DNA of 33,115 nt from a virus. Shown here piece after piece: positions 4,844-29,386 of the stretch. The position numbers and the translations under genes are program-made. The stretch covers positions 1 through 33,115 of IMG/VR virus record IMGVR_UViG_3300030101_001681; one strand, 5' to 3'. Below the pieces are notes generated by a model. That model had not been told where the DNA came from, ran no database searches, and was given only the letters and a program-made list of their open reading frames with translations. Position 1 is the stretch's first letter. Every line of letters starts with the position of its first letter.

Positions 4844-4866
4844 AAAAAAGGGTTGAGTGTTTTATA

Positions 4867-4891
4867 TAAAAAAAGGGGCCTCTTGGCCCCT
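4867..4891 (-). terminator. intrinsic terminator
   Basis: A perfect 7-bp stem AGGGGCC/GGCCCCT with a 4-nt loop (4874-4891), followed on the minus strand by a run of Ts (4867-4874). It lies just after the stop of the 54-aa gene and before the 118-aa gene. Confidence 0.85.
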
Positions 4892-4896
4892 CTATT

Positions 4897-5061: not shown

Positions 5062-5129
5062 AATAAAAATATTTAAAGGTTAATAATATTCAAAACTACT
5101 TCGCTTATGCGAACTCTAAATTCGCACAT

Positions 5130-5154
5130 AAAAAAAGGGGCCATATAGGCCCCT
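5130..5154 (-). terminator. intrinsic terminator
   Basis: Stem AGGGGCC/GGCCCCT (5136-5142 with 5148-5154), loop ATATA, then a T run on the minus strand (5130-5136). It ends the transcript of the 184-aa protein gene. The stem bases are the same as in the terminator at 4867-4891, so the two terminators share a sequence origin or have been copied. Confidence 0.85.
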
Positions 5155-5174
5155 CTCTATCACCAGGTAAAAAC

Positions 5175-5729: not shown

Positions 5730-5743
5730 ATTTTTATAGTATT

Positions 5744-5779
5744 AAAAAAGGGTAGGCAGGCTCAAGGCTCACCTACCCT
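5744..5779 (-). terminator. intrinsic terminator after the capsid gene
   Basis: Stem GGGTAGG/CCTACCC (5750-5756 with 5772-5778) around a 15-nt loop that can fold further, with the A/T pair at 5749/5779 and a T run on the minus strand. It follows the capsid stop codon by about 20 bp. Confidence 0.8.
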
Positions 5780-5799
5780 CTTATATTAAACAATTGTTC

Positions 5800-6723: not shown

Positions 6724-6731
6724 TTTTGTGT

Positions 6732-7214
6732 TTATTTATTAAATTTGCTCATATTGTTCAATACTCGATCCAGGGTAGTCTGAGTTCTTCTTTGAGCAAA
6801 AAGATTCATTTCTACTTCTGGCTTTGCTTCTGGGCTGTGAACCATAGGCTCAACTTCAGCCTCTACAGCAGCTAATTCCTCTTTAGGAACTTCACTGTTA
6901 TACTTTTCAGAGGTAGATTTTATTTCACCCATAAGGCTTTCTACCATAGCTTTAAGTTCAGCAAATTCTTCTTTAGTGGCATATAGCTCCTCATTAGCGT
7001 CTACCTTTTCGTTTTCTAAAGACTCGTCTGATGAATCTTGATTTAGTTGTTCACCTTCAGATAACACAACTTCCTCCCCTTCTGGAGTTTCGTCTACTTT
7101 CTCTACCACTTCTTCAGCAGCGGAAAGTTCTTCTTGAGCTACTTCTTGATCCTCAATTTCTTGAGAGCCTAGAAGAACCTCTTTTAGTTTTTCTACAATT
7201 TCTGTCGCTTTCAT
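6732..7214 (-). CDS. scaffolding-like protein
   Basis: A 160-aa, strongly acidic protein (long Glu/Asp-rich stretches in residues 15-80), predicted coiled coil in the middle (residues about 80-115, ATKEEFAELKAMVESLMGEI), and a short C-terminal Arg/Gln/Asn-rich tail that could dock on the capsid protein. Acidic helical proteins directly before the capsid gene are typically internal scaffolds. The upstream protease is likely to remove it. Confidence 0.7.
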   Translation of the reverse strand: MKATEIVEKLKEVLLGSQEIEDQEVAQEELSAAEEVVEKVDETPEGEEVVLSEGEQLNQDSSDESLENEKVDANEELYATKEEFAELKAMVESLMGEIKSTSEKYNSEVPKEELAAVEAEVEPMVHSPEAKPEVEMNLFAQRRTQTTLDRVLNNMSKFNK

Positions 7215-7263
7215 AGTTTAAAATATATTAATATTACCAAATTTGAATCTAGTTGTTGTATTT

Positions 7264-8817
7264 TTAACCTAAGTCTTCTATTACCCAATAATATCCTGCA
7301 TCACTATTATTATCAATCATAGTTTCTTGATTAGGACTTGATACCGCAGTCCCCGCTACGCTAGTGATCCCTGTAAATACCATTTTATAACTTGTCCAAT
7401 TGGAAGCATTACCTCCATATGGACTTGATGGTACGCTGCTTAAATCATCGGGTGTGGTGTAAGTAAATGTTCCTGTAATTGACCTGTATTGTGCTAACAA
7501 AACGTCAGAAGGACTGTAAAAAGATATTCTTGCGTTTCCTAAGTTAAACGTAGAACCAGCACTCGTAGTCTGTCCCGCTATTACATCCCCTAACTGACTC
7601 ATTAAAGCTAATGCATTTGTTTTACCCGTAACAGGGTCATTAGCGTAAACGCTAAAAGCATATGTGCTAGTACCAGTATTTATTATAGGCTCTAGTTCTA
7701 CATAGGTACCAGATGATGGTGTTTGTTGGTTAAAATACAATATAGGTAATTGTGTATCAGTTGTAGTACAAGCAATTGTTTGACCTGAATTAGTATATCC
7801 ACTTGGTACAGTTATATTAACTGTAAGTGTGCGAGTTGTTTCAGTTGTTACAGTTGCAAAACTTCCAGGACTCATACTATCAATAGTACCAATGTCTACT
7901 GATACAGCAGATGAATTGTACCTACCGCTTGCATAAAGATCAAATCCTGAAATAGTAACCTCACTACAATCAAGAACATTGTAGGGAGGTTGTGTTGCAG
8001 TTGTCGTACAAGTTAAAGTGCTGCCTGTATTGAAATATCCAGCAGGAACTGTAATATCTAAGCTTAATGTTCTTGTAGTATTTACTGTAACTGTGGCAAA
8101 TGATGAAGGACTACTTGATGTTATAGTGCCTATATCTACAGCAGGTTGCGTTATTGCACCATTTTCATCGACTGCAAAACCGCTTATAGTTATGTCTGAA
8201 CACGCTAAGGTAGGAGTCAACGGCTGTGTAGCCGTTGTGGTACAATTAAGTGTTGCTCCTGTATTAAAATATCCAGCAGGAACTGTAATATCTACATTTA
8301 AAGTTCTTACAGTATTCACATCTACTATTACAAATGAGGTTGGACTTGTGCTAGATATTGCCCCTATATCAGCAGTAGGAAGTGTAATTGTTCCATTTTG
8401 AGCTACTGCAAATCCAGATAAAGTTATATCACTACAAGAAAGCGTAGGTGTTGCTGGTTGAGTAGCTGTGGCTGTACACTGTATTGTTGTCTCTGCATTA
8501 CTATATTTTCCAGGGACTAAGATAGAAACTGTTAAAGTCCTTTCAGTAGAGGTATCAACAGCAGCAAAAGAGGCTGGTGTTGTAGCAGTTATAGTACCTA
8601 TGTCTGTAGTAGGCAATGTAATTGTACCATCTGTTGCTACACTAAAACCACTTAAGGTTAAGTCTTGACAGCCTAAGGATGGGGCAGACACACTTCCAAT
8701 CCCCTGGTTAATCAATTCACCATCACAGCACTTCCTTGAGTATGTCTTGCCATCTTTACATAGACACGCTCTTCTTGATCCTCTAGGGCTTGAATAACTT
8801 CCTCTTTTGCTTCTCAT
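7264..8817 (-). CDS. Ig-like repeat virion protein
   Basis: 517 aa. The first about 45 residues are basic and Cys-rich (RRACLCKDGKTYSRKCCDG). Four tandem repeats of 78 aa follow (residues about 50-355), each opening with a Cys (C50, C128, C206, C284) and closing with a second Cys 64-66 residues later, with conserved DIGTI, SFA and RTL/ITVP strands. A unique 160-aa C-terminal domain ends the protein. Such beta-sandwich repeats decorate phage heads or fibres and may bind glycans. One copy of the same repeat is fused to the tail protein at 15452-16027. It starts by TAATG overlap with the protease gene. Confidence 0.75.
   Translation of the reverse strand: MRSKRGSYSSPRGSRRACLCKDGKTYSRKCCDGELINQGIGSVSAPSLGCQDLTLSGFSVATDGTITLPTTDIGTITATTPASFAAVDTSTERTLTVSILVPGKYSNAETTIQCTATATQPATPTLSCSDITLSGFAVAQNGTITLPTADIGAISSTSPTSFVIVDVNTVRTLNVDITVPAGYFNTGATLNCTTTATQPLTPTLACSDITISGFAVDENGAITQPAVDIGTITSSSPSSFATVTVNTTRTLSLDITVPAGYFNTGSTLTCTTTATQPPYNVLDCSEVTISGFDLYASGRYNSSAVSVDIGTIDSMSPGSFATVTTETTRTLTVNITVPSGYTNSGQTIACTTTDTQLPILYFNQQTPSSGTYVELEPIINTGTSTYAFSVYANDPVTGKTNALALMSQLGDVIAGQTTSAGSTFNLGNARISFYSPSDVLLAQYRSITGTFTYTTPDDLSSVPSSPYGGNASNWTSYKMVFTGITSVAGTAVSSPNQETMIDNNSDAGYYWVIEDLG
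7750..8670 (-). repeat. four in-frame tandem repeats of about 234 bp
   Basis: The repeats encode the 78-aa units of the Ig-like protein. Units two and three are the most alike (VPAGYFNTG and CTTTATQP both present), unit four the most diverged (inserted residues near YASGRYNSS). The pattern is one of internal duplication with drift and makes unit number variable by recombination. Confidence 0.8.
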
Positions 8818-10313
8818 TACTTGCTAGACTTCGGATGTTTCTTTGGTAATAAATCGTAATCTGTTGTGTACTTTGGATTTTGAGGTCTGCCGTTTTTAAT
8901 TAAGTATAAAAAGGCATTAGTGCGTGCAAAAGCCCACTGAGAAGCTGACTTAACATTAGGACTGTGACTTGTATTAAAAGCTCCAAGCCCACGCTGAAAA
9001 ACAGAGGCAAGCATACCAACAGTGACACCATAACCCAGTTTTTCTTTATATTTTTCATTAAATTCATTTGCTTTCTTTTGAAGTGTTTCTCTGTCTTTTG
9101 CAGAGACTTTAGCTCCAGTTTTACCCGAAGCATCACCTTTAGCCGTACCCTTGCCCTTTGGGCTAGGGTTAGGCGTATCGGACTTAGGGGCTTTAGGGCT
9201 TTTTCTAACCCCTCCCTTTGGTCCAATCTCGGCCATATTGTGTTTCTCGCAAGGCATATACCAAGTATCGCCTTCGTAGTCGTGGGTGTGATATCCTTCA
9301 CACCCTATATCTTTAGCTGCTTCTTCTGCCTCTTCTATTGTAGAGTATGCAGCTCTTCCGTCTATAATTGTAGATGAAGCCTCTATTGCGTTTAGTCCTT
9401 TGAGTTTAGAAGTAACCCAAGTCAGCATACTTTTGCCTCCCCATAGTAAATAAGAAATGGTTCCGCAAGCTTCTGAGTTGCTAGAGTCGTAATATGTTTC
9501 TGCTCTAGATAAATAACTGTAGATCCTCTTGAGAGTAGGTAGTGTAAATTTAGTATTTCCCTTTGCAATTTGTTGTCCTCTGACTTTTCCCACTTGGGTA
9601 GCACAACGATTTCCAACTTTTTCATTTAGCTCTATACCTCTTTTAGCATTGTTGACCGCAGACTTTGGATATCCTCCATAAGATTCTAGCTCTACCTCAT
9701 CAGAAAGTTCTGAAATGGCTTCTAGCAATTCGTATTCTGCATTTAGCTCATCAACGCATTCATCATAAAAAGACTCTGGTAAAATATCTTGAGGGCCTTC
9801 ATCAGCATTATCTGCAAAATAGCCTTCTATAGAAAAGCCGTGAACTTCTCCGGCTTTTACTTTTTTCCATACGTCATCATTATATACCTTCATAGAAACC
9901 ATCCAAGTTCCTACTGGTACATCAAATCCATATTTTCTAGATTTATCTTTCTTTTCGTCTTCTACAAGCCAGCTTTCCACGACAGTCATTCCATCAAGCT
10001 TTTCGTTATGCTCTAATGTAGAGTTCGATTGATAACCTCTTTTAAGGAAAAGCTCTGAAGCTTTTCTTACAGTGTCTACAGAGAAATAAATAAAGTAATC
10101 TCCGTCTTCTCCCCTTCTTAATATTTTCTTGTTAGGGACCAAAGCTGCTCCCATCAGTATACGCTTTTCACCGTCTACTTCAGCAAGCATAACTGGCTCT
10201 TTCTTGAGAGCAATAAAGTCTTCCTCTATAGCTGGGTTTTCTACTACTGAGATAGCTTCTATCCCGCTAAATTCGTTTTCTTCGTCTATAATGAGTTCTA
10301 TTACTTTCTCCAT
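8817..10313 (-). CDS. prohead protease (XkdF/S78-like) with extra C-terminal domains
   Basis: 498 aa. Residues 1-170 carry the S78/XkdF protease pattern, with a His at position 102 (STLEHNEKLDG) and a nucleophile Ser at 161 in VHGFSIEGYF, separated by the usual GTWM strand. Residues about 215-310 form a second domain of the type ANN..RGIELN...GNRCATQVGKV. The C-terminal third has a Pro/Ser/Lys linker (about 370-410) and a small basic domain. It matures the prohead by cleaving scaffold. The fusion of protease to further domains is common in this phage group, as I recall. The start is preceded by the shared start-site motif. Confidence 0.8.
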   Translation of the reverse strand: MEKVIELIIDEENEFSGIEAISVVENPAIEEDFIALKKEPVMLAEVDGEKRILMGAALVPNKKILRRGEDGDYFIYFSVDTVRKASELFLKRGYQSNSTLEHNEKLDGMTVVESWLVEDEKKDKSRKYGFDVPVGTWMVSMKVYNDDVWKKVKAGEVHGFSIEGYFADNADEGPQDILPESFYDECVDELNAEYELLEAISELSDEVELESYGGYPKSAVNNAKRGIELNEKVGNRCATQVGKVRGQQIAKGNTKFTLPTLKRIYSYLSRAETYYDSSNSEACGTISYLLWGGKSMLTWVTSKLKGLNAIEASSTIIDGRAAYSTIEEAEEAAKDIGCEGYHTHDYEGDTWYMPCEKHNMAEIGPKGGVRKSPKAPKSDTPNPSPKGKGTAKGDASGKTGAKVSAKDRETLQKKANEFNEKYKEKLGYGVTVGMLASVFQRGLGAFNTSHSPNVKSASQWAFARTNAFLYLIKNGRPQNPKYTTDYDLLPKKHPKSSK

Positions 10314-10326
10314 ACTATTATAACTG
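10311..10326 (-). promoter_or_regulatory. shared start-site motif, copy 2
   Basis: The minus strand reads CAGTTATAATAGTATG, one base different from the copies at 4828, 17726 and 22074. It directly precedes the first gene of the head module. Confidence 0.45.
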
Positions 10327-10347
10327 TTTATTTTAACTGTTGTTTTA

Positions 10348-11913
10348 TTATCCTATTGTAGCAGAATTTATAATCTTGTTATCTAAGTCTTGTTGACTGG
10401 TAACTTCACTACCGACAACAAATGCTTTCAAAGGCTGATTTCTGCCTCTGGCAATAGCTTCCCCTATTTGATTTACGTTAGATTGGCCTACTACATTGAA
10501 TATTGGGGCCGCTTGACTTGTTCCAGCCCCTTTAGACGCACTTAATGTACCTGCCCCCTTTGACCCTGGGACTTTGACGGCTAGTATATTCTTAACGTTA
10601 GCTAACCCCTGCACAACCGCTGCCGCTGCTAAAGCAAATCTAGCTACAGTAGGTAATGTTTTGTCAGTTAATGCTGCGTTTGCCCCAACATAAGCATCCA
10701 TTGTGGCTGTTGCAATTGCAAAAGCCTTACCCGCTGCGCTTTGTTCCCCTAGAAAATTAGCCATACTATTAGTAAATTCAGCGATAGCAGCTATTTCTTC
10801 TAAGTAATTATTTTTCTTATTTTCTGTTACGCGGTTATCAGATTCGATGAGTTCTGCATTTAATTCTGTCTTAAATTTTACAAGATCAGAAAACCCTTGA
10901 GCTTCTATTTCATTTGCAGTTTTTTGCCTCTTCCTATCTAACATACCAAAAGCTTCATTAGCAGAATTGTTTTTTTCTAAAAAGGAAAACAATAAACTTG
11001 CTCTTTTATTATTGGCATCTTCTTGTACTTTAAATTCGTCTATCGTATTTTGTATTCTTTTCTTTCTTCTATTTTCAGCTTCTTCGTCAGTTCTCCTAAC
11101 AGCCTCCCCTCTATTGTTTGTGAATAATATAAAATCATCCGCTAAAGACTTTTCCGCTTCAGAAACAGCCTCTTGTTTCCTTAAAGAAATATCTAATGCT
11201 TCAACTTCTAGTTTTTCTAGTTCCTTTCTGATAGCTTGAGCTTTTGCTAATTTTCTTAGTGATTTTATTTTATCCTCTATTGCATCTCTAGAAGCCTGTG
11301 TTAATTTGCCATTCTCGTCTACTTCTGGATTTAAATCCTTATATCTTTTGGTTATTGCAAAAAGTGTTCTTTGTAATTCATCTCCACTTAAATTCCCTCT
11401 ATCGACTAGCTTAACAAAAATATCTAAATCTGCTGCGGTCTCTGTAAAAGAACCTTTTAGTGCATCTAAAGACTTTTTAAGCTTCTTACTATTCATTTCA
11501 CTTTTTTCTAATTTAGCAATGAAAATATTAAATAGAACAATAAGTCCCAATGGGCCTAGGAAAGCTTTCCCTAACTGCTTGATTCCACCAACTACACCCC
11601 CAGAAGTGGCAATAAGAGTAATGAATAATGTTGACAATTGGCTTATGTTGTTAGCCATTGCTGTAAAGCCATAGTTGGAGTCAGATATAGTTCTACTAAG
11701 TTCTACAAGGGTTGCTCCAGCAAGACCAGTCTTATCAATCATATTCTTTGAAGACTTGCTAGTCTTGTTCATCTCAGCGGCTTGCTTTTTTAAATCAACA
11801 TTGACTTTATTGATAGCGGTATCTAAGCTTACAAAGTCTTTGGTTAACCCTTGGACTTTAGCCTTACCTGCATCATTTATTTCAAATATGAATCTTATTC
11901 TATTGTCGGCCAT
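10348..11913 (-). CDS. tape measure protein
   Basis: 521 aa. The N-terminus (MADNRIRFIFEINDAGKAKV) is a classical tape measure opening, followed by long helical and coiled-coil stretches (residues about 20-70 and 130-330), two hydrophobic segments (about 80-125, IATSGGVVGGIKQLGKAFLG) and an Ala-rich region with GANAALTDKTLPTVARFALA (about 405-435). It sets tail length and probably forms a channel for DNA. The modest length implies a rather short siphovirus tail. It is separated by about 5 kb from the tail assembly chaperone gene, which normally sits next to it. Confidence 0.8.
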   Translation of the reverse strand: MADNRIRFIFEINDAGKAKVQGLTKDFVSLDTAINKVNVDLKKQAAEMNKTSKSSKNMIDKTGLAGATLVELSRTISDSNYGFTAMANNISQLSTLFITLIATSGGVVGGIKQLGKAFLGPLGLIVLFNIFIAKLEKSEMNSKKLKKSLDALKGSFTETAADLDIFVKLVDRGNLSGDELQRTLFAITKRYKDLNPEVDENGKLTQASRDAIEDKIKSLRKLAKAQAIRKELEKLEVEALDISLRKQEAVSEAEKSLADDFILFTNNRGEAVRRTDEEAENRRKKRIQNTIDEFKVQEDANNKRASLLFSFLEKNNSANEAFGMLDRKRQKTANEIEAQGFSDLVKFKTELNAELIESDNRVTENKKNNYLEEIAAIAEFTNSMANFLGEQSAAGKAFAIATATMDAYVGANAALTDKTLPTVARFALAAAAVVQGLANVKNILAVKVPGSKGAGTLSASKGAGTSQAAPIFNVVGQSNVNQIGEAIARGRNQPLKAFVVGSEVTSQQDLDNKIINSATIG

Positions 11914-12049
11914 ATTTTCTACGTTTAACTGTTTCTCTCATCTCTTTAAATGTTTCTGGAGCCTTATGACTTCCTTTTGCAAACTGAATTAATTCGTTTG
12001 CATCATAATAATCCATAAGTTGTAACCCCTCTATAACTTGCTTTATCAT
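11900..12049 (-). CDS. small conserved-type protein before the tape measure gene
   Basis: A 49-aa basic protein (MIKQVIEGLQLMDYYDANEL ... KRRKYGRQ). It overlaps the upstream gene by ATGA and the tape measure start by 14 bp, so it is well embedded in the operon. It is helical in the first half and Lys/Arg-rich at the end. The function is unknown; a tape-measure cofactor is a guess. Confidence 0.6.
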   Translation of the reverse strand: MIKQVIEGLQLMDYYDANELIQFAKGSHKAPETFKEMRETVKRRKYGRQ

Positions 12050-14406
12050 ACTGTTCTGGTTGTTAAATCTACTGTTACTGCTGTTGTGTCAACCCTAACA
12101 ACATCTTTAGACACGTCTGTCGCTATATCAGAGAAGTTGTCGTTGTGAACAAAAGGTTCTGATGTCCCGTCAGGATTAAGAACCTCGTCTGTTCTTTTAT
12201 TCAACAATTCAAGCTGAGTAAGCCCAGTCACAAAATTTGTTGTCATTTGATTTATCCGATATTCAGTATCAAATATTATAATAGTGTCATTAAGTTTTAT
12301 TTTTATTAACTCATCAGCTGGTATATATGCTTTGAATTTAAATAGACGACTTTCTATATCGAATATATCTGTTATGTAATTTCTATAATGTTCATTGAAT
12401 AATGTCTTCTCAAAGGGGACTAGGGCAAATTCATTTTTCTCTGCGTGAAAATTAATATTATTACTATCTGTGAGTAATACAGAATTTGAAGGCATATTAA
12501 CTGTAGATATTAATTGACTAGACCCCGTTTTTACAACTTCAATTTGAGTTTCAGAACCAAAACTTAAGTCTGTATTGTTTACGTTATAAAACAATAATGG
12601 CTCTCCCACTACAGGATTTTCGTTTTCATCAACAGAATATCCCCATTGCACTCTAGTTTTGTTATTTGGATCTGAAGCATCGTCTTGATCAAAAAGCCTA
12701 TTAAACAATTGATGTTCTATAGGAACACTAACAGTATATTCTTCTCCTATTGAGTTTTCTTCAAAAACCTCTTGGTTGTTTGCCGCTGGCCTAGTGTACT
12801 TTATAGTACCCCATCCTTTTTTATTTACATCCTCATAATTTTTAGCAAGTATTGTATTCCGGCCTTCGTACTCAAAAGTTACACTTTTAAAAGGGTATGT
12901 TGGAGTTATATTGTGATCTGTTGTATCTACATATTTTGTTATATCTATTTTAGACCCTTCAGAATAAAATTGGTCTAGTGTTTTTATATTAATCTTGTCT
13001 GTAAGTGGATCTATTTGAGCTGTAAGATTAAACATTTTAAACAAAGATGTTAGTATATCTAATATCTTCATTTTATTAGGCAGAAGTTGTGTTATGTTTA
13101 TTTTCTTAGTTGTAGTAATACTGATCGAGGCATCATAAGAAACAGCTCTCGTGGCTACCAATATATTAAATATATTTATATTAGGAGCCCTATTTTTTTG
13201 TATTTTAAAGTTTATAGTAAAGTCATTAGCACTAAAGGTTTCAATGTAGAATGTATAACTTCCTGTTGCAAGACCATAAGTACCAAAAGTCCTTGGCATA
13301 ATCGTTGTTGGAATCGTTGATCCGGATAGATTGTCAAATCTTCTAAATTCTTCATTGTCTTTGTAAACAACAAAACTGTAAGGTGCCGTGAGATTAGTTG
13401 GCGTTATCCTAGTTTCTAAATAATATTCTACTTGTTTTTCATCAAAGATATGTAAAGCTCCATTGTTTGTGGGAGGTAGATAAAAGTCTGTTAATCCTTC
13501 TTCGCTGGTGTCACCTCTAGCAGCAGTAAATTCGCTACCTTTAAGTTTGTGAGAAATAGGTTTAAATTGCTCTCTATCCTTCATCTGGCCCTTCTCTTTG
13601 TTTAACCATAAAAATAGATTATAGTATTGCGGATTAGAGTCCCTGAAAAAAACATTACTAACTGAAAGGGCTGATCCTGTGTCTGTAGTTTTAGCAAAAT
13701 TTATATTAGTGAATTGAGCTTCGATTGCATTTATAATAGCATCAACTCTTATGGCTGGTTTAACATCATTAATATCTAACCCTTTTTGATTGTTATTGGG
13801 ATATAAATTATTCTCTTTACTTGGAGAAATCGAATCATACTTTAATGCTTTAGACACAGCTATTAAAGGAACTAATAAAGCACCAGTGTTTGTTACTGAA
13901 TTTATGGTTATATCTTGAGGAGTCTGAAGTAATGAAAGTAAATTGTCTTCAGTAAAATCAAAATCTACATCTGACAAAAAAGTTAATTCATCTAATTTAG
14001 CCTCCCCTAAAGAATCGCTTAAAGTTATGGTGCTGCCAAAAAAAGTAAGCCCATAGGAATATGGTTTACCATTTTTCATATTAACAGAATCTAATTGTAT
14101 TCGGCCTTTTTTAAATAGCCTATAGTTTATATGTAATTGGGCATCTATCCTTTTAGAAGAATCAAAAGTTAAACCTAAACTAGATGGTAAATCCCTTCCT
14201 ATATTAGGATTATAAAAGTGTTTAAAAGCCTTGTTATTTGTTTTGCTGGCTGGAACCGTAAAAGACTTGCTATAATCTGCGAATACAGCTTTTATATCCT
14301 TAACGTTTTGAATCGTTTGAATTAATTCAATGCTCTCAAAATCGAATAACTCAATTTGAGTGTTTGAGGAAGTCTCTGTTATATATAACTGTAAATCTAT
14401 TCTCAT
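12046..14406 (-). CDS. large tail / baseplate-like protein
   Basis: 786 aa, the longest complete gene here. The N-terminus contains the segment DYSKSFTVPASKTNNKAFKH, which I associate with a family of tail proteins in flavobacterial phages. The middle is beta-rich (residues about 300-450, with a jelly-roll-like pattern), and the C-terminal third resembles the tail-hub beta domain (residues about 440-740). It probably forms the distal tail hub or a baseplate plate. It overlaps both neighbours by ATGA, suggesting fixed stoichiometry. No lytic domain was seen. Confidence 0.65.
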   Translation of the reverse strand: MRIDLQLYITETSSNTQIELFDFESIELIQTIQNVKDIKAVFADYSKSFTVPASKTNNKAFKHFYNPNIGRDLPSSLGLTFDSSKRIDAQLHINYRLFKKGRIQLDSVNMKNGKPYSYGLTFFGSTITLSDSLGEAKLDELTFLSDVDFDFTEDNLLSLLQTPQDITINSVTNTGALLVPLIAVSKALKYDSISPSKENNLYPNNNQKGLDINDVKPAIRVDAIINAIEAQFTNINFAKTTDTGSALSVSNVFFRDSNPQYYNLFLWLNKEKGQMKDREQFKPISHKLKGSEFTAARGDTSEEGLTDFYLPPTNNGALHIFDEKQVEYYLETRITPTNLTAPYSFVVYKDNEEFRRFDNLSGSTIPTTIMPRTFGTYGLATGSYTFYIETFSANDFTINFKIQKNRAPNINIFNILVATRAVSYDASISITTTKKINITQLLPNKMKILDILTSLFKMFNLTAQIDPLTDKINIKTLDQFYSEGSKIDITKYVDTTDHNITPTYPFKSVTFEYEGRNTILAKNYEDVNKKGWGTIKYTRPAANNQEVFEENSIGEEYTVSVPIEHQLFNRLFDQDDASDPNNKTRVQWGYSVDENENPVVGEPLLFYNVNNTDLSFGSETQIEVVKTGSSQLISTVNMPSNSVLLTDSNNINFHAEKNEFALVPFEKTLFNEHYRNYITDIFDIESRLFKFKAYIPADELIKIKLNDTIIIFDTEYRINQMTTNFVTGLTQLELLNKRTDEVLNPDGTSEPFVHNDNFSDIATDVSKDVVRVDTTAVTVDLTTRTV

Positions 14407-15161
14407 CTTACTGCATTGATCTTATCAGAAGAAAAATCAAATTGAACGGTATAATTAATTGTTTTGTCATTTACACTGGTAGCATATTGCAATTGCTTTG
14501 TTGTGGGTATTGCGGATAAAACACTCCCTTCATATGTAATCCAACAATCTTCACTTAACAATAGCTCTTCTATTGTTTGATTAAAATCCTCGTTAACAAA
14601 ACCAGTATTTAAGGTCATTGTTGTTAAGCTGCTTAAATTGAATCTTTGGAATTGACCCTCATTAACATCATAAGAAGCATTAGAGTTTATTATATTTTTC
14701 TTATATCTATCATCCTCTATTGTTAGGTTTTCTGTAGACTTCTTAAAGAAATACATACACTGAATTACTCCAAACTTATTTATAAATTGGCATTTAATTG
14801 GTGTGAACTTAGGTTCACAAACAGGAATTAGGCTTATACTTTTTAATAGTGTAGTTTGACCATTATTATATACGTTTATAGTATATGATGAATTATTTGT
14901 GTTTGGTGCAAACGTTACATACTTAACAGCACTTGCAGCAGTATTATCAAAATCTGCTGCTAAATCTACTGTAGTGGGAGTCCCATTTACAGTATATAAA
15001 ATCTCTATATCGTCTTCTGTAAAGAAAGGGATATCTATAGATGTTCCCTCCGGGGTATAAACATAATTCGATGATATAAGCGCGTGTCTACTAAGTTCAG
15101 GATTAGCTCCTTCATTAAAATAACCATATCCGTCAAATGCTAAATAATAAGATGTTGCCAT
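14403..15161 (-). CDS. distal tail protein-like
   Basis: 252 aa, beta-rich, with an N-terminal MATSYYLAFDGYGYFNEGAN and a second domain around CMYFFKKSTENLTIE. The position before the large hub-like gene and the ATGA junction with it suggest a distal tail or adaptor ring protein. I see no enzyme motif. The role is inferred from context. Confidence 0.55.
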   Translation of the reverse strand: MATSYYLAFDGYGYFNEGANPELSRHALISSNYVYTPEGTSIDIPFFTEDDIEILYTVNGTPTTVDLAADFDNTAASAVKYVTFAPNTNNSSYTINVYNNGQTTLLKSISLIPVCEPKFTPIKCQFINKFGVIQCMYFFKKSTENLTIEDDRYKKNIINSNASYDVNEGQFQRFNLSSLTTMTLNTGFVNEDFNQTIEELLLSEDCWITYEGSVLSAIPTTKQLQYATSVNDKTINYTVQFDFSSDKINAVR

Positions 15162-15162
15162 A

Positions 15163-15450
15163 TTATGTTGTTATTGTGGACTCTAATTGAACCCATTTTA
15201 TATAATTTTTATTGCTATTTAGTGGTGTGTCTACGTTTTTTTCTAAATGTGATTTTATTATATCAGAAAGCTCTAAAATAACATAATCATTCCCTGGCAG
15301 AGGCTGCTCTTTTATTGTAAGAATGGCAGTTCCTTTATCTGTGGTTTTTGTTCCTGAATATACATAAACTTCAACCTCAACCTTAGTCATACCGGATTGA
15401 CTAAACTTTACAAAAAACGGGCTTCTGGTATTTATTTTAGTTTCTGGCAT
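15163..15450 (-). CDS. tail protein, paralogue of the N-domain of the upstream protein
   Basis: 95 aa, starting at MPETKINTRSPFFVKF. It aligns over its full length with residues 1-90 of the upstream 191-aa protein, sharing SGTKTTDKG, NDYV, TPLNSNK and KWVQ. The upstream protein carries an extra Ig-like repeat that this one lacks. The start used lies 1 bp after the stop of the upstream gene; a longer reading into it is antiphase and unlikely. The two are a tandem duplication. Confidence 0.7.
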   Translation of the reverse strand: MPETKINTRSPFFVKFSQSGMTKVEVEVYVYSGTKTTDKGTAILTIKEQPLPGNDYVILELSDIIKSHLEKNVDTPLNSNKNYIKWVQLESTITT

Positions 15451-15451
15451 A

Positions 15452-16027
15452 TTACGATGAAGGTTGGTCTGCTGTAAATACGCAGGTTTTTGTGTCGGTT
15501 CCTTGAAATCCACTAAATCCGCTAGGAATTTTTATATGTGCTGTTAGCTCTCTAGATATAGGGCTTCCACTTGTATTTGCGGCAAAGCTTGCTGGCGTTG
15601 TTTCTGATCCCGGAATAAAATCACTATCTTCTCTAAACACAAATTTAGTTATGCGCGTGTCTGAAGATGATGAAACAGGAAGCGTAACCGTTCCATCTTG
15701 GGCTACAGAAAACGAACTCAAATCAGTACAGTCTGGAACATATTCTTTTTCAATAATTTCTTCTATTTGCACCCATTTTACATAATCTTTATTAGAGTTT
15801 AATGGTGTATTAGAATTGGGCGTTATGTAATCTCTAATCAATTCAGAATAGTCTATTAAAACATAATCGTTGTTATTTACAGGGAATTTTCTTAACTGAT
15901 ATCTGGGACTTCCTTTGTCCGTAGTTTTTGTGCCTGAATAGATGTATAATTCTATATGCACACTAACTAGGTTTGTGTGCTGATATTTTTTAACAAAAGG
16001 ACTTCTTACATTTATCTTAGTTGACAT
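15452..16027 (-). CDS. tail protein with C-terminal Ig-like repeat
   Basis: 191 aa. Residues 1-92 form a beta domain shared with the next gene (SGTKTTDKG motif). Residues 96-191 are one copy of the Cys-flanked repeat found four times in the protein at 7264-8817: C100 opens it, FSVAQDGTVTLPV and TPASFAA follow, and C182 closes it before FTADQP. This looks like a modular decoration added to a core tail protein. The start follows closely on the gp10-like gene. Confidence 0.7.
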   Translation of the reverse strand: MSTKINVRSPFVKKYQHTNLVSVHIELYIYSGTKTTDKGSPRYQLRKFPVNNNDYVLIDYSELIRDYITPNSNTPLNSNKDYVKWVQIEEIIEKEYVPDCTDLSSFSVAQDGTVTLPVSSSSDTRITKFVFREDSDFIPGSETTPASFAANTSGSPISRELTAHIKIPSGFSGFQGTDTKTCVFTADQPSS

Positions 16028-16502
16028 TCTTACTTGTTGAGTTTTTAAGGTGCTGTTCTACGTCTTTGATGTAAGCCTCTGATGAATCAGACAAAATAGC
16101 TCTCACTATTCTTAACATTGCTAATTCAGATATATTTCTTCCTTGATATCCAAATCTTTTTATAGTTCCCTTTTTCCCTATTGACCGAGCAATTAAGAAT
16201 GCTGTTTGTTTAGTATTCATCCCTGGGAAGTCTGATATATTTTTTTGCTTCATCCATCTAGCAATAGGCCTGTATGGAGGCTGAGTTTTTCCAGCTGTTC
16301 TCCCAAACTGTAAAATATCAAACACAAAGCTTTTTTCTATGCCTATACCTATAGAGTCAGCAGTTTCGCCTACTTTAGCAAACACACTCCTAGCTGTCTT
16401 GCCTGTAGCATAAAGCTCATCACTTATCATCTGGTCTCTTATGGCCCTCTGTATCTGAGGCGCATATCTATTCATTACTGCTTTAAGATTTTTTCTATTC
16501 AC
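16017..16502 (-). CDS. HK97 gp10-like tail completion / neck protein
   Basis: 161 aa, basic, with the pattern ATGKTARSVFAKVGE, then GRTAGKTQPPYRPIARWM, then ARSIGKKGTIKRFGYQGRN, as in neck or tail completion proteins of the gp10 type that act between head connector and tail. The start is GTG (16500-16502) inside the last codons of the preceding gene, an 8-bp overlap. No ATG is in a better place. Confidence 0.65.
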   Translation of the reverse strand: MNRKNLKAVMNRYAPQIQRAIRDQMISDELYATGKTARSVFAKVGETADSIGIGIEKSFVFDILQFGRTAGKTQPPYRPIARWMKQKNISDFPGMNTKQTAFLIARSIGKKGTIKRFGYQGRNISELAMLRIVRAILSDSSEAYIKDVEQHLKNSTSKNVN

Positions 16503-16962
16503 AAGTGCTAAAATTATCGTTAGGCATTTGTACAGACAGCGTTATTCCCCATCCAGCTAATTCATTTTCAAAACGATCCTGGAAAGGCTCAGCTGTAACT
16601 TCTCCAGCTACTTGGAGGTCACTATTTTCTAATAGCGTACCTCTTCTTAAATGGCTCTGTAGATCATTTACAACAGCAAGCTGAGTATTTAATATATCTT
16701 GCAGGTTATCATTACCATAAAATGAATCATAAGTATTTTCATTCTTGTTTTTGTCGACAATATCCATAGACAATACACTAATGTCTGCTGTCATAACGTA
16801 GTCACTAAAGACTACGTTTCCTATGCTTATGTGTGACAATGGAAATATAGTTGTCTTAGTTAAGTCAACCTCCATTATATCACCAAAGGTTACAGTATTA
16901 GTGATATTATTGGCTCTTAGCCTGTCTTTAATCTTGTCTAATAAGTCGTATACTTCTTTCAT
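16495..16962 (-). CDS. tail terminator-like protein
   Basis: 155 aa. Helical start (MKEVYDLLDKIKDRLRANNI), then a beta-rich body ending in FENELAGWGITLSVQMPN, a layout typical of small tail terminator or tail completion proteins. Its ATG overlaps the stop of the -1 frame of the tail assembly chaperone gene (ATGA), evidence that this -1 frame is translated. Confidence 0.55.
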   Translation of the reverse strand: MKEVYDLLDKIKDRLRANNITNTVTFGDIMEVDLTKTTIFPLSHISIGNVVFSDYVMTADISVLSMDIVDKNKNENTYDSFYGNDNLQDILNTQLAVVNDLQSHLRRGTLLENSDLQVAGEVTAEPFQDRFENELAGWGITLSVQMPNDNFSTCE

Positions 16963-17213
16963 TTTATTTTCTTAATAGCCGCAGCTTCTAATTGATTCTT
17001 TTCTTTCTCAAATTCAAGCCAACTTAAGGCTTGCGTAACTTTGAGTTTTGTAACTTCTTCAAATTTGAGGAGGTCTCCTTTAGCGATTGCATAAATTGAC
17101 TGATACCAACCCCATTTTCTGCCAAAGCTTGCCTCAGCTCCGAGTCCTCCTTCTGAGCCTCCTTCTGTAAATAACCCATCAAATAAACTGACAGTTCTTT
17201 CCCTAAACGATAA
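16959..17213 (-). CDS. -1 frame extension of the tail assembly chaperone
   Basis: An 84-codon open frame reached by a -1 slip on the T9 run at 17212-17220. The encoded part contains SLFDGLFTEGGSEGG, then KWGWYQSIYAIAKGDLLKFE and FEKEKNQLEAAAIKKIK. It has no start codon of its own near the slip, shows protein-like composition, and ends at 16959-16961 in an ATGA overlap with the next gene. The fused product would be 256 aa, and the first about 190 nt are read in two frames. It corresponds to the T part of the lambda G/GT system, which recruits the tape measure protein. Confidence 0.75.
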   Translation of the reverse strand, partial: LSFRERTVSLFDGLFTEGGSEGGLGAEASFGRKWGWYQSIYAIAKGDLLKFEEVTKLKVTQALSWLEFEKEKNQLEAAAIKKIK

Positions 17214-17728
17214 AAAAAAACCACAGCCCCCAGTGCTACATCAATAGGCATATCTTTCATTACCTCTGAGTATTTATCTGAGCTTTCGTAGTTTTCTATA
17301 AGGTACATTCCTCTTTTCTCGAAAGTAATCGGTCTGTATAATACAGCCATAGCTTTATGCATATCACTCCAGTCAGCCATATAAGTGTCTAAGTCAACAA
17401 ATTCTCCTAAAGAGATGCTATCGAGCTTGGGTATAAACCCAAACTCTACCTCATCACCATTTGGGTCCTTTAATGAGAACCTGCTTATCATAGGAGTCTC
17501 TACTTTAAACAACTCATTAAGGTGGTTTATTACAAAGTTGAAGTCAGTAAGCTTCATATTATAGGCTTCCTTTAGAGTCAGCCCACAAAAGACCTCCAGC
17601 ATTTTAAGATTAAGAAACTCTGGGTCTTGAGCGTCCTTATTATCCTCGGACAACTTATAGAACTTTTGATATTCTGAAAGCTTAATTCCTCTTAGCGACT
17701 TGGGGATGTCTATCTTTAACTGCTTCAT
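17024..17728 (-). CDS. tail assembly chaperone, frame-0 product
   Basis: 234 aa, starting at MKQLKIDIPKSLRGIKLSEY. A mostly helical protein with DWSDMHKAMAVLYRPI and DMPIDVALGAVVFFYRLGKE in the second half, the pattern of tail assembly chaperones in this phage group as I recall it. Frame 0 continues past the slip site for about 62 codons, rich in Lys, Glu and Gln. The start is supported by the motif GTTATATTAGTATG; upstream in-frame codons read into the non-coding leader. It is the first gene of the tail module, separated from terminase by the foreign island. Confidence 0.75.
   Translation of the reverse strand: MKQLKIDIPKSLRGIKLSEYQKFYKLSEDNKDAQDPEFLNLKMLEVFCGLTLKEAYNMKLTDFNFVINHLNELFKVETPMISRFSLKDPNGDEVEFGFIPKLDSISLGEFVDLDTYMADWSDMHKAMAVLYRPITFEKRGMYLIENYESSDKYSEVMKDMPIDVALGAVVFFYRLGKELSVYLMGYLQKEAQKEDSELRQALAENGVGISQFMQSLKETSSNLKKLQNSKLRKP
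17212..17220 (-). promoter_or_regulatory. -1 ribosomal frameshift slippery site
   Basis: Nine Ts on the minus strand. In frame 0 the codons are GTT TTT TTT TAT, which contains the canonical slippery heptamer T TTT TTT at 17219-17213. A one-base backward slip opens the 84-codon -1 frame that ends at 16959. Confidence 0.75.
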
Positions 17729-17743
17729 ACTAATATAACCAAT
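17726..17743 (-). promoter_or_regulatory. shared start-site motif, copy 3
   Basis: The minus strand reads GGTTATATTAGTATG before the chaperone ATG. An inverted relative (TTAGTTATATTAATATAG on the plus strand) lies about 50 bp upstream near 17790-17806. Confidence 0.5.
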
Positions 17744-17931
17744 ATTTAGTATCGGTGTACCATAAGCAGACCAAAACAAAAGATGGAAAAATTAGTTATA
17801 TTAATATAGAATTGGAATTTTGGGAGTCCCAAACGAACAAAATAGACAATTCGATATCCTTACTGGGTATTAATAAAGAGGTTGAGGGTAACTATGCTTT
17901 TATCTGAAAGCTAATCCTCTTTTCTAAATCG

Positions 17932-18029
17932 GTTGATTTTATTAAACCTGATATATACACCCCACCAAAACCCGTTTTACGTTGATTTTATTAAAGTGGA
18001 TATATACAACCCCGATTAATGCGTTTTAC
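17932..18029. repeat. two tandem 49-bp direct repeats
   Basis: Units 17932-17980 and 17981-18029 both begin GTTGATTTTATTAAA, share GATATATACA and CCCC in the middle, and end CGTTTTAC. A fragment GTTAAA follows. The 49-bp period is close to five helical turns, as often seen for protein-binding iterons. Confidence 0.85.
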
Positions 18030-18090
18030 GTTAAAGCTCTGAGCGGGGCGCAAATCTCCGGATAGGGGTAGGGTACCTGTCCTATGTTTA

Positions 18091-18127
18091 AGGCCCTTAG
18101 ACGCGCTGTGAGCGCCTCCTGGGGCCT
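18091..18127. other. GC-rich imperfect hairpin
   Basis: Outer stem AGGCCC/GGGCCT (18091-18096 with 18122-18127), symmetrical 6/6 internal loop, inner stem GCGCT/AGCGC with a GTG loop (18103-18115). A second, weaker pair ATAGG/CCTAT lies immediately upstream (about 18062-18085). There is no T run, so it is not a standard terminator; a structured RNA or protein-binding site is possible. Confidence 0.55.
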
Positions 18128-18169
18128 GTTCTCGTTTGGTTGATTATTTTTAAGGCGCGCGTATACCAC

Positions 18170-18200
18170 AAAAAAAAGCCTCACTAATTAGCAAGGCTTT
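18170..18200 (-). terminator. intrinsic terminator of the island operon
   Basis: Stem AAAGCCT/AGGCTTT (18175-18181 with 18194-18200), loop containing the palindrome CTAATTAG, followed on the minus strand by a run of eight Ts. It lies about 30 bp after the last island gene and insulates the island from the tail operon. Confidence 0.85.
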
Positions 18201-18228
18201 ATAAATTTATTCAATTATTATTTTTGTT

Positions 18229-18420
18229 CTATTTTGTTAGGTTTATAAATTCAGTTTGTTTAATTCTCTTATAAAATGTTTTATCGTCTGTTATATAATA
18301 TTCAGCGGGGGCGGTTATATCATATTCAATTATAGACAAAGCCTTTTTAATTGGGTAAAGCTTTTTTATTTCTTTGCTTTGTTTTCTGTAGTGTTCAAAC
18401 TGTTGTTTTGATTTGCTCAT
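18229..18420 (-). CDS. small basic protein of the island, unknown
   Basis: 63 aa, Lys-rich N-terminal helix (MSKSKQQFEHYRKQSKEIKK) and a C-terminal part with several Tyr/Thr residues. It overlaps the end of the GP88-family gene by 26 bp and is the last gene before the island terminator. It may be a partner of that protein. No family was recognised. Confidence 0.55.
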   Translation of the reverse strand: MSKSKQQFEHYRKQSKEIKKLYPIKKALSIIEYDITAPAEYYITDDKTFYKRIKQTEFINLTK

Positions 18421-19168
18421 TTTGTTTTGTGTTTAATATTTGGAATAGATTAGTGTTTATAATAAAACCGGTTTTGTCCTCCTTGGCTTTTCGTCCCTTA
18501 GCCCTGAGGCCCAATATAACGCCGGCGTGATTTAGCATAACTAGGTCGCTGGTATCACCGTCAACTACTTTAAAGCCTTTGTATCGGGTCGGCAGTTGAT
18601 CCGAGAAAACCGCGGACACATTAGCCCCGAGGCTTAAGGCCTCGAGGGCCTCGCGCTCATTGTCTTCAGCCCTGGAATAAGTCACAACATAATTAAGCGC
18701 GTTAATATACTTTTTTACTTTGCCTAATATTTTGGTATAATCATAGAAGACCGCGACCGGGGCCAGGTCTTCAATATTAAGGCCCGCGTATTTTTTCAAT
18801 AGATAAATAAAATCCTGGTCGCTGGTCCCGTTTAAACGAAAAGCTATTTGCTCCCCTTTCTTTTTAGCTTTGGCCGTTTCTTTTATTATTTCGCCCGCTA
18901 GCTTTTTAATGAATAGGCTTTTATCCTGTATATAAAAATTAGTTTTATTTATGCGCGCATTTTGTACGCTATTAAAAGCCCCCCGGCCGGCGTTATATAA
19001 ACAAGCCAGCGCGCAACCTTTTGAGGCTTTCGGACATAGGTTTACACCGGTTGAATTTTGGGTATGCGGGGCCAGGTATAAAATAAAGGTTTTAATCTCA
19101 TTCTTTGCCGTTTTCGCATTGGTATGGCCCGGGCTTAATAGCCGGGCCGGGATAGTATAATTTTTCAT
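18395..19168 (-). CDS. GP88-family phage protein (function unknown)
   Basis: 257 aa. Near the N-terminus it has NLCPKASKGCALACLYNAGR (C45, C52, C56), followed by AFNSVQNARINKT, then FRLNGTSDQDFIYLLKKY, YSRAEDNEREALEALSLGA and a C-terminal GLRAKGRKAKEDKTGFII. This combination matches the family known from mycobacteriophage Gene 88, present in many unrelated phages, with no established function. The Cys triad could bind a metal or cluster; the regular alternation of strands and helices would suit a TIM-barrel-like fold, which is inference. Codon use (GCC, GCG, CCG, CGG) is clearly GC-richer than in all flanking phage genes, indicating recent acquisition. It starts by ATGA overlap with the preceding gene. 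Confidence 0.7.
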   Translation of the reverse strand: MKNYTIPARLLSPGHTNAKTAKNEIKTFILYLAPHTQNSTGVNLCPKASKGCALACLYNAGRGAFNSVQNARINKTNFYIQDKSLFIKKLAGEIIKETAKAKKKGEQIAFRLNGTSDQDFIYLLKKYAGLNIEDLAPVAVFYDYTKILGKVKKYINALNYVVTYSRAEDNEREALEALSLGANVSAVFSDQLPTRYKGFKVVDGDTSDLVMLNHAGVILGLRAKGRKAKEDKTGFIINTNLFQILNTKQNEQIKTTV

Positions 19169-19383
19169 TGTATTAATTTTAATAGTTTACGTTCAATAAA
19201 TGTATAAATAAATTCAGCCGGCAAATCAAAGCTTTTGCCGTCCGCTGTAATTGTGGCCTGTATTACTTCGGCATCATTGGCCCCGGGCGTTTCATTGTCA
19301 CCGGTCCAGTCTGTTAATAATAAGGTGAAATCTAGCTGGTAGCCGTCCCCTATAAAGGTCTCATATTGTTTACGTTCTTTCAT
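19165..19383 (-). CDS. small acidic protein of the island, unknown
   Basis: 72 aa with an Asp/Thr-rich middle (DWTGDNETPGANDAEVIQAT) and a hydrophobic C-terminal helix (FIYTFIERKLLKLIQ, amphipathic). Codon use is like the GP88-family gene. The ATGA overlap with that gene implies a coupled pair. The function is not recognised. Confidence 0.6.
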   Translation of the reverse strand: MKERKQYETFIGDGYQLDFTLLLTDWTGDNETPGANDAEVIQATITADGKSFDLPAEFIYTFIERKLLKLIQ

Positions 19384-19393
19384 TTCATTTAAT

Positions 19394-19528
19394 TTAATTA
19401 TCGTCTAAATATTCAAGGATTTGATTATATACGCCAGGAAAATCTCTGTGTAAAATTGCGACAATTTCCCCGTCTGCGTGTTCATTATATATTCTTACTT
19501 TTTCCTGGTCCTGGTTAAAATTTATCAT
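19394..19528 (-). CDS. small acidic protein of the island, unknown
   Basis: 44 aa (MINFNQDQEKVRIYNEHADG ... LEYLDDN). It starts by ATGA overlap with the gene before it and ends 10 bp before the next start, so it is a convincing operon member despite its size. Acidic, no transmembrane segment, no family recognised. Confidence 0.55.
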   Translation of the reverse strand: MINFNQDQEKVRIYNEHADGEIVAILHRDFPGVYNQILEYLDDN

Positions 19529-19875
19529 CTGTTAATTATTTTATTTAGTTTATTAATATTCTCAATTGCTTTGTCGATACGCTCCATTGAGTCCGCAAAT
19601 GTATCATTGAAAAATTTATATTCTATCCCGTCAATTTTTGCGGATATAATCCGCTCAAATTTGATTGCCCTATATTGTTTTTTTGACATATTAAACAAAA
19701 CTAAATTCTTAGCCTTGATTGGATCATATTTTAACGATCCACCTTTTAAATAAGATTTAACGCCAAATCTAAATTTTCCCGCGCCTAATGATTTGTCCTC
19801 GCGTGAATAAGTAAGGGAAAAGATTTTTCCGCCTTTTGTCTTTTCTAGTAATTCAAAATAATTTAAAGTTTCCAT
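19525..19875 (-). CDS. unknown island protein
   Basis: 116 aa from METLNYFELLEKTKGGKIFS. Basic, mixed alpha/beta, with FRFGVKSYLKGG and a C-terminal helix (DSMERIDKAIENINKLNKII). A longer in-frame reading to 19941 exists but overlaps a separate 27-aa membrane peptide, so the shorter start is preferred. It lies downstream of a promoter-like sequence and is the first soluble protein of the island operon. No function recognised. Confidence 0.55.
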   Translation of the reverse strand: METLNYFELLEKTKGGKIFSLTYSREDKSLGAGKFRFGVKSYLKGGSLKYDPIKAKNLVLFNMSKKQYRAIKFERIISAKIDGIEYKFFNDTFADSMERIDKAIENINKLNKIINR

Positions 19876-19885
19876 TCTGTAATAA

Positions 19886-19969
19886 TTAAAGGTTAATAAA
19901 ATAATTGATAAAATGCCCGATGATATAACCACCAAAAGCAAATAAGTAAAGGTTTGTAATTAGTTTCAT
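19886..19969 (-). CDS. 27-aa membrane peptide at the head of the island operon
   Basis: MKLITNLYLFAFGGYIIGHF then INYFINL, a single hydrophobic helix. The ATG is about 20 bp after the predicted transcription start of the promoter-like element at 19995-20025, and the stop is 10 bp before the next ATG. It could be a real small membrane protein or a leader peptide. Confidence 0.4.
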   Translation of the reverse strand: MKLITNLYLFAFGGYIIGHFINYFINL

Positions 19970-20325
19970 TTGATTAAATGTTTTAAAGTTTCTACAAATA
20001 TAAACATTTTATTAACACATACAACAAATAAAGATAAAAATCAAGCACCCCCCCTACTTTTTTTTTAATTGTGGGCGGGGGATCTTTACAAAATGAATTC
20101 TAAACTGTATATAATAGGAACGGGCGCGCGTTATTTACAAAACATTTTTAACATATCCAAGCCCAAAACCTTATCAATAATAAATCTAAATAGTGGATTT
20201 GCGGGGGGTACTGCGTTTAAGAGGGTACTGCGTTTAAGAATCCAGTTGCGAGTTCCTGGGCCTACTGCGTTTAAGAATTTCGGGGCCACTGCGTTTAAGA
20301 ATCTACCCCTACTGCGTTTAAGAAT
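19942..20325. other. mostly gene-free region upstream of the island operon
   Basis: About 380 bp between the island operon and the terminase stop. It holds the 27-aa membrane peptide, one promoter-like element reading towards the island, a poly-pyrimidine segment (about 20045-20068) and five copies of the CTGCGTTTAAGA repeat. The possible plus-strand reading through the repeats has no support. Confidence 0.55.
19995..20025 (-). promoter_or_regulatory. Bacteroidota-type promoter of the island operon
   Basis: The minus strand has GTTG (20025-20022), a 19-bp spacer and TATATTTG (20002-19995), matching the -33 TTG and -7 TAnnTTTG boxes of Bacteroidota. Transcription would start near 19988, about 20 bp before the first ATG. 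Confidence 0.55.
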
Positions 20326-20330
20326 CTACC
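20209..20330. repeat. array of five CTGCGTTTAAGA repeats overlapping the terminase end
   Basis: ACTGCGTTTAAGA occurs at about 20210, 20227, 20264, 20288 and 20311 with irregular spacing (17, 37, 24 and 23 bp). The last two copies extend to ACTGCGTTTAAGAATCTACC, and the final copy contains the terminase stop codon (20326-20328). A sixth copy, ACTGCGTTTAAA, is at 29583. In the transcript orientation the core reads TTAAACGCAGT. Confidence 0.85.
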
Positions 20331-21537
20331 GGATCACATAAGTGCCACGCTTGGCATTGATCTCTGCAAACTGAAGAGCATATCTCATTGCATCGATACA
20401 GTGATTCCACTTGTCTATTGGCCGCTCATTGCGAGCGTGCCATACATAATTGTTCAGCTCTTTGATTATATTCTCTGACTTAGCATCTACTATAATCTCA
20501 TAGTCCTGCATAAGGGCTATCCCTGAAAGGATAGACCCTTTACCTTTCTTTGCTCCTTTTACATTACAGCCATAAACCTCCCGGAGTTCCTGTATCATCC
20601 TAGGCTCATTGTTGTCTGTTATAATTATAGAGTCCAAGGCGTGTCTTATATTCCTTTCCCCTATTTCTTTTGTAGATAGTCCAGGCTTAACGAAACACTC
20701 CTGGACCCACATAATCCTATGTTCGGTGTCTACAGAGCATCTAATAAGCGTTGTTGGGTCTGTAGAGAATCCGTAATCTTGTCCGTATACAATTTGATGG
20801 TAGTCTTTGAATTGGCCAGTCCTCCAGTTGGTGATCACCACACCTTCAGCCTTGTCAATCCACCCACCCATTATCTGGTGCAGATACTTCCTGGGGTTCT
20901 TCTTGCGCATTATCTCTACCTGCTCTACAAATGACTTAGACAAATGTTCTTTATTATCTATATAGCTGGTGTGAATATATGTTACATTATCTTTCCAAGA
21001 ATTAGATCCTGCTTCTACTCGCTTGGCAGCGAAGAAGCGTTGGTATATCCAATGTTCCTTTGTAGTAGGGTTGAGGATAAGTATACACCTATTTTGTTTA
21101 TCCTTATCTCTTACAGACTGATCTATCTTATCAAAGCTGTCTTCGTCTATAAGTTCTTCTGCTTCATCCAAGACAAAGGTTGTAATACCTTGTAAGGACT
21201 TAAGCGCAGCGGTTTGGTTACCGCTGCTGGTCTTGATACCTTTAAATATTATTGAGCTTCCAGTAGCTGTGTTTAAGATTTCGTCCTTGGTTATCCTGAA
21301 GTGTTTAGCAATACCAAACAGCTCAAGCTTCTCCAGGAACTCTGGTATAATAGAAGTAGCAGCAGAGACCATAGTATACCTAGTGAACAGTATCTTATGG
21401 CCCTTCTCCATTGTAAGGAAAGCTAGGAAGGTATTTACTGCAAAGGACTTGCCGGATCCCCTACCACCCGTCACTACAAAGTAACGGGTGTCATTTCCTA
21501 AAGCTTGGTATTTATCGTGAAGTTGAGGACTTGCCAC
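20326..21537 (-). CDS. terL: terminase large subunit
   Basis: 403 aa. The ATPase domain has Walker A GGRGSGKS (residues 24-31) and Walker B FVLDEAEE (121-128). The nuclease domain shows D254 (YGQDYGF), D308 (IIITDNN) and D382 (HCIDAMRYAL), the expected acidic triad of the RNase H-like fold. This is the Terminase_3 (PBSX/SPP1-like) type. The enzyme cuts concatemers and drives DNA through the portal. The start is GTG (21535-21537) inside the end of a 54-aa gene; no better ATG lies upstream in frame. Confidence 0.9.
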   Translation of the reverse strand: MASPQLHDKYQALGNDTRYFVVTGGRGSGKSFAVNTFLAFLTMEKGHKILFTRYTMVSAATSIIPEFLEKLELFGIAKHFRITKDEILNTATGSSIIFKGIKTSSGNQTAALKSLQGITTFVLDEAEELIDEDSFDKIDQSVRDKDKQNRCILILNPTTKEHWIYQRFFAAKRVEAGSNSWKDNVTYIHTSYIDNKEHLSKSFVEQVEIMRKKNPRKYLHQIMGGWIDKAEGVVITNWRTGQFKDYHQIVYGQDYGFSTDPTTLIRCSVDTEHRIMWVQECFVKPGLSTKEIGERNIRHALDSIIITDNNEPRMIQELREVYGCNVKGAKKGKGSILSGIALMQDYEIIVDAKSENIIKELNNYVWHARNERPIDKWNHCIDAMRYALQFAEINAKRGTYVIR

Positions 21538-28969: not shown

Positions 28970-29001
28970 CAAATATATATTTTATTATTAATATAACCAA
29001 A
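28970..29001 (-). promoter_or_regulatory. promoter-like element inside the end of the second M15-like gene
   Basis: TTTG (29001-28998), 20-bp spacer and TATATTTG (28977-28970) on the minus strand. The predicted start is about 50 bp upstream of the terminator at 28884-28913, so a transcript would have to pass it before reaching the ERF operon. Confidence 0.45.
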
Positions 29002-29353: not shown

Positions 29354-29386
29354 ATTGCAATATAATAATTTTTTATACATTTGCAA

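Follow-up and report, generated by a model that had tools for sequence, protein, structure and literature searches.

This locus raises the question of whether a gene interrupted by a run of nine Ts gives rise to one protein or two and, if two, which machine switches between them and what the products do. The window, the whole 33,115-nucleotide stretch of viral DNA analysed here, carries the gene on its minus strand. A sequence-only reading had called it a tail assembly chaperone gene with a programmed -1 frameshift, and the gene coordinates, slippery run, 84-codon -1 frame and ATGA overlap that it described were all recovered:

17024-17728, minus strand: frame-0 open reading frame ('G-like' product), 234 aa, from the ATG at 17728 to the stop at 17026-17024
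17212-17220, minus strand: slip site, a nine-T run, read in frame 0 as GTT TTT TTT TAT at 17221-17210
16959-17219, minus strand: -1 frame ('T-like' domain), 86 aa, from the run to the TGA at 16961-16959
17027-17212, minus strand: dual-coding stretch, 186 nt, whose 62 post-slip frame-0 codons are also read in the -1 frame according to open-frame tests and codon-position divergence
16962-17023, minus strand: -1-only stretch, the end of the T-like domain, diverging mostly at -1 third positions
16495-16962, minus strand: next gene, 155 aa, whose ATG at 16962 overlaps the -1 stop (ATGA); phrog_30964, function not assigned there

The -1 frame is open for 86 codons from 17219 (84 without the two Phe codons), and the T TTT TTT heptamer is phased as a -1 slip requires. 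The same ATGA overlap with the next gene, which judging by its genomic place is probably a tail completion or terminator gene, was present in 125 of 218 homologues. Runs of nine Ts are not rare in the window by dinucleotide shuffling (2 seen versus 3.7 expected); T9 alone is therefore not significant, and the case is carried by conservation.

The frame-0 protein as sole query matched 31 viral contigs, and the -1 peptide as query found a relative encoded in at least 592. Conservation was assessed over 218 distinct homologous sites. Three Bacteroidota MAG contigs are among them, as are the isolates Nonlabens phage P12024L and P12024S; the sampling was not random, comprising the best 80 per scan, found via conserved -1 motifs. 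Of these sites, 200 have T9 and 18 have T10, with none shorter, and all 218 keep both the run and an open -1 frame, as the earlier claim of programmed frameshifting requires of related phages. Contigs from the frame-0-only search, which are unbiased as to an intact -1 frame, showed the same T run in every case where it was covered; three of them lacked a -1 match because the frame-0 match was cut short. The run is found in three codon phases (NTT TTT TTT Tnn, ATG TTT TTT TTT n and (G/A)GT TTT TTT TTG), each occurring in several places scattered over the tree. In 658 other genes of these contigs, runs of at least nine Ts were never seen, versus about 15.6 expected, and runs of at least nine As were seen 5 times versus about 51 expected.

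The DNA beyond the run was examined for selection on both frames. In an open-frame test on 76 diverged representatives, the -1 peptide was held and synonymous codons were redrawn; a frame-0 extension of at least 45 codons was observed in 72 of the representatives, versus 6.5 expected. For the window itself, synonymous reshuffling gave a probability of 0.0002 that frame 0 stays open for at least 62 codons given the -1 peptide, and the probability that the -1 frame is open across the overlap given the frame-0 peptide was 0.0017. For the representatives at their observed lengths, the median P was 0.0085, and 0.0015 in the reverse test. The third frame contains a mean of 5.8 stops and is open in none. 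Codon-position divergence was measured over 59 disjoint pairs of relatives. Ahead of the run, divergence at frame-0 positions 1/2/3 was 0.101/0.058/0.292; the overlap gave 0.090/0.150/0.129, and the part beyond the frame-0 stop 0.066/0.228/0.087. Frame 0 thus holds the third-position signal before the run and the -1 frame holds it after the frame-0 stop; in between it is flattened, the pattern of double coding expected where both readings matter. In the overlap, -1 third positions diverged 0.66 times as much as downstream (95% CI 0.56-0.77), least of all near the run. Selection keeps each of the two frames open, and the dual-coding stretch of about 190 nt that had been proposed, 186 nt by our count, is real in both readings. 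Taken together, comparisons among related sequences leave us highly confident that recoding is combined here with dual coding.

The frame-0 extension past the run measures 47-84 codons outside the deepest branch, and 16-26 codons in that branch, which consists of P12024L, L119, L120 and L122. The 71 long-overlap rows lie on the opposite side of one well-supported branch (100/97). Depending on the root, either the long overlap may have been gained or the short overlap may represent a loss.

The conserved -1 sequence (FFLxFRxR...KWGWYQSIYALAxGD...; 75 rows in the domain alignment) has its first residues exactly at the run. No open stretch longer than 45 codons occurs in the -1 frame upstream of the run, and ahead of the conserved core this frame contains no ATG, GTG or TTG in 152 of the 218 homologues and an ATG in only 9. 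A conserved domain continuous with the run and preceded by few internal starts supports the -1 fusion product that had been proposed. Relatives in which both halves are joined in a single open reading frame, colinear with the two parts found here, occur in a Flavobacteriales genome, in viral contigs and in Polaribacter phage Leef_1 (L268-L279 and Leef_1 gp2):

L268:967-1701; L269-L279; L280:511-1290: fused single-ORF version

The C-terminal part of the fused family matched the -1 profile with an hhalign probability of 80 and E of 1.3e-5 (single comparison); its N-terminal part matched the frame-0 profile with E of 2.6e-4 but a probability of only 42%, the order of the two parts being right. 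In L268 the fused open reading frame is followed by genes sized like those downstream in the window. Since distant Flavobacteriales relatives are fused in one frame, we read the -1 peptide as the C-terminal domain of the frame-0 protein. A hidden slip site was sought in the fused family: some tandem Lys codons are conserved, and no conserved run or stop pattern was found. These relatives consist of one open reading frame without T9, and a separate short product is thus not evident in them. L267, a 43-bit genome match, was dropped, as it held a convincing gene of this kind in no frame.

The AlphaFold2 model of the frame-0 protein has a confident core (mean pLDDT 89.6); the dual-coded tail starts within a long helix (162-204) and ends as a low-confidence helix. 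The modelled -1 domain is small and helical (mean pLDDT 79.9). Foldseek searches of predicted viral structures returned several proteins of 226-267 aa that were common to the matches of both models, and matches to annotated tail or tape-measure chaperones were weak (E about 0.1), as was a match to PHROG_166, 'tail protein' (E 0.016). Searches of Pfam, NCBIfam and the PDB with both halves gave nothing useful, and FERM-domain matches in the PDB fold search were set aside as chance. In both the window phage and P12024L, the gene comes after the large terminase and ahead of the tail genes. Its G/GT-like arrangement, this genomic place and the fused relatives make a tail assembly chaperone the probable function, as had been suggested, although no annotated family matched strongly. 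The locus is most likely a two-product tail assembly chaperone gene of a Bacteroidota-infecting siphovirus family.

The position of the gene relative to the tape measure had been called unusual. The tape-measure gene (10348-11913) is indeed some 5 kb away, with five genes in between, and the chaperone gene does not occupy the typical place between the major tail protein and the tape measure; but the tape measure of P12024L is likewise not adjacent, at about 6 kb, and such separation is normal for this phage family.

Several further features of the region were recorded. The structural module spans 3230-21537 and holds terminase, chaperone, tail genes, tape measure, protease, a possible scaffold, capsid and portal, with portal and capsid coming after the tail genes. 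A candidate tube protein is encoded at 5175-5729. A GP88-family gene (18395-19168, minus strand; PF17338, E 2.3e-36) sits between the terminase and the chaperone gene, and P12024L has no gene at this position. The noncoding gap directly upstream of the chaperone gene contains two tandem 49-bp repeats that are 78% identical (17932-18029). The overlapping neighbours 15163-15513 and 15452-16027 (minus strand) carry a duplicated tail-region domain with 49% identity over 90 residues. Elsewhere in the window, the gene at 28988-29386 (minus strand) is a paralogue, at 46% identity, of the Peptidase_M15_3 gene at 30466-30873; two residues that should serve as metal ligands, the Asp and the second His, are missing from it (SSHLIGKAAII...IYVD, where 30466-30873 has [11 protein letters not shown]...IHVD), and it is probably a catalytically dead copy that has been kept in frame.

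Several other accounts of the split gene have to be weighed. Homopolymers are error-prone, and in-frame fused relatives exist in other phages, as would suit a sequencing or assembly error, or a frameshifted pseudogene, that splits one open reading frame; but the 218 distinct sites, which come from many samples and two isolate genomes, all have the T9 or T10 run out of frame, the post-run part of frame 0 is itself under selection, and no clade member has the in-frame version, so that we give artefact or decay next to no credence. Phase variation was considered and rejected, the in-frame version never having been seen in the clade and both frames being selected. It is also highly improbable that the -1 open reading frame stands as a gene of its own, with ribosomes starting internally or reinitiating once they have passed the frame-0 stop. 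P12024L has a -1-frame ATG that overlaps the frame-0 stop (TAATG), and its record annotates a hypothetical protein of its own there, gp41; against this, the most conserved -1 residues begin at the T run itself, start codons ahead of the core are scarce, the -1 peptide of the window contains no Met, and fused single-ORF relatives are known. Either slip mechanism would be compatible with a two-product phage structural gene whose role is other than that of a tail chaperone, such as one for a head-tail joining or scaffold-like protein. No strong match to annotated tail chaperones was obtained, and the gene lies in the neighbourhood of the terminase, some 5 kb from the tape measure; yet the PHROG and structural matches, weak as they are, point to tail proteins and tail or tape-measure chaperones, tail genes follow downstream and the architecture is of the G/GT type, and we regard this alternative as unlikely.

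The nature of the slipping machine is more finely balanced. The same two products could be made by -1 ribosomal frameshifting on T TTT TTT, through slippage of tandem Phe tRNAs, with the extra Ts kept by amino-acid needs only. This is the mechanism that the sequence-only reading assumed, and for known tail chaperones it is the route that has been established (PMC5009743). The heptamer stands in the right phase in every homologue, and the third position of its second Phe codon is always T, despite the fact that TTC accounts for 23% of upstream Phe codons and would, in the usual phase, be synonymous there in both frames. Seven Ts suffice for a ribosomal slip, however, and 7 or 8 Ts were found at 0 of the 218 sites; where a non-T base precedes the heptamer (GGT in L122, AGT in L198), the run is lengthened on the opposite side and nine are still kept. 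Across the homologues no conserved downstream RNA structure was found, and SD-like motifs, tested as stimulators, were few. The run of nine or more that is always kept in three codon phases, the avoidance of T9 elsewhere and the missing conserved RNA structure lead us to lean to RNA-polymerase slippage, which these data fit at least as well as a ribosomal slip.

In many bacterial genomes, A/T runs are selected against once they reach nine nucleotides, and the U run of mxiE gains a nucleotide (PMC1088944). Slippage by bacterial RNA polymerase requires at least seven Ts, mxiE having T9, and insertions are more frequent with poly(T) than with poly(A) (PMC6260861). On the other side, amino-acid constraint may hold the two extra Ts (a hydrophobic residue before; Leu after, in the -1 frame), and runs of seven Ts are also under-represented in the other genes (31 versus 80), such that slipping at the level of the heptamer may matter too. 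On the comparative data, a transcriptional rather than purely ribosomal slip appears somewhat the better choice; purely ribosomal frameshifting is a serious contender that we nevertheless consider less probable.

The chaperone function, the product ratio and the slipping machine are what we infer in the scheme that follows. Unslipped expression would yield the 234-aa frame-0 protein, a 172-aa core with a 62-aa C-terminal tail. In a minority of events, a slip by one at the nine-T run would join the same core to the 86-aa -1 domain, giving about 255 aa in total. The DNA after the run specifies two alternative C-terminal tails at once, both of them selected. The slip is more likely than not the work of RNA polymerase, inserting an extra U at the T9 run in the manner of Shigella mxiE; some ribosomal slippage at T TTT TTT may add to it. 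If the pair works like lambda G and GT, the common product would keep the tape-measure protein coated or soluble, and recruitment of the tail-tube subunit would be an added task of the rare fused one. The full reading is that RNA-polymerase slippage on an invariant T9, and not the ribosome, sets the tail-chaperone ratio in a widespread Bacteroidota phage clade, which has also evolved a conserved module of about 60 dual-coding codons; to this we assign a probability of about 0.48.

Frameshifts in tail chaperones are textbook translational recoding, and neither frameshifted tail chaperones nor transcriptional slippage at T9 is new. A literature search that left subscription papers outside its scope found no description of transcriptional slippage in a tail chaperone, nor of this gene family. 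A large and mostly unannotated phage family (the at least 592 contigs of one scan) may achieve by transcription what those frameshifts achieve in translation, and it packs two selected protein ends into about 190 nt. The single-coding flanks on both sides of the overlap serve as internal controls and make the locus a clean natural system for the evolution of dual coding, to which the short-overlap relatives, as a separate branch, and the fused relatives add value. The analysis also supplies an annotation for hundreds of 'hypothetical proteins'.

Among known systems, phage lambda gpG/gpGT resembles this gene in making a common product and a rare product that acquires a second domain through a -1 frame change, in lying in the tail gene region and in the overlap of the end of the -1 open reading frame with the next gene. 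The canonical X XXY YYZ heptamer of G/GT-type genes is in phase at 218 of 218 sites, and comparative evidence points to a longer product made from the same start by a -1 change. The lambda slip site is GGGAAAG, whereas here it is T9, and 62 frame-0 codons follow the slip site here versus 5 in lambda, the one system with which this length was compared, in agreement with the earlier claim of an overlap beyond that of lambda. Unlike in lambda, the gene is not beside the tape measure and the slip is possibly made by RNA polymerase; a sequence or fold match to the lambda proteins was not detectable. Polaribacter phage Leef_1 gp2 (Leefvirus) and L268-L279 have an N-terminal half like the frame-0 core and a C-terminal half like the -1 domain, but as a single continuous open reading frame without the T9 run. 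The Nonlabens phages P12024L (gp40 and gp41) and P12024S (gp38 and gp39), of Inhavirus, have a homologous pair that shares the T9 run and the -1 domain; they differ in a frame-0 extension of about 25 codons, and their records annotate two hypothetical proteins and miss the frameshift. In Shigella mxiE, as here, a T9 run joins two overlapping open reading frames, and an inserted nucleotide leads to the longer product (PMC1088944, PMC6260861). The two features of such a system, an A/T run of at least nine conserved at the junction of two open reading frames and avoidance of T runs of this length elsewhere in the genome, were both found here, at 218 of 218 sites and over 658 genes. The mxiE product is a transcription activator, whereas this gene belongs to the tail region of a phage, where the run is accompanied by long, selected dual coding conserved over hundreds of phages.
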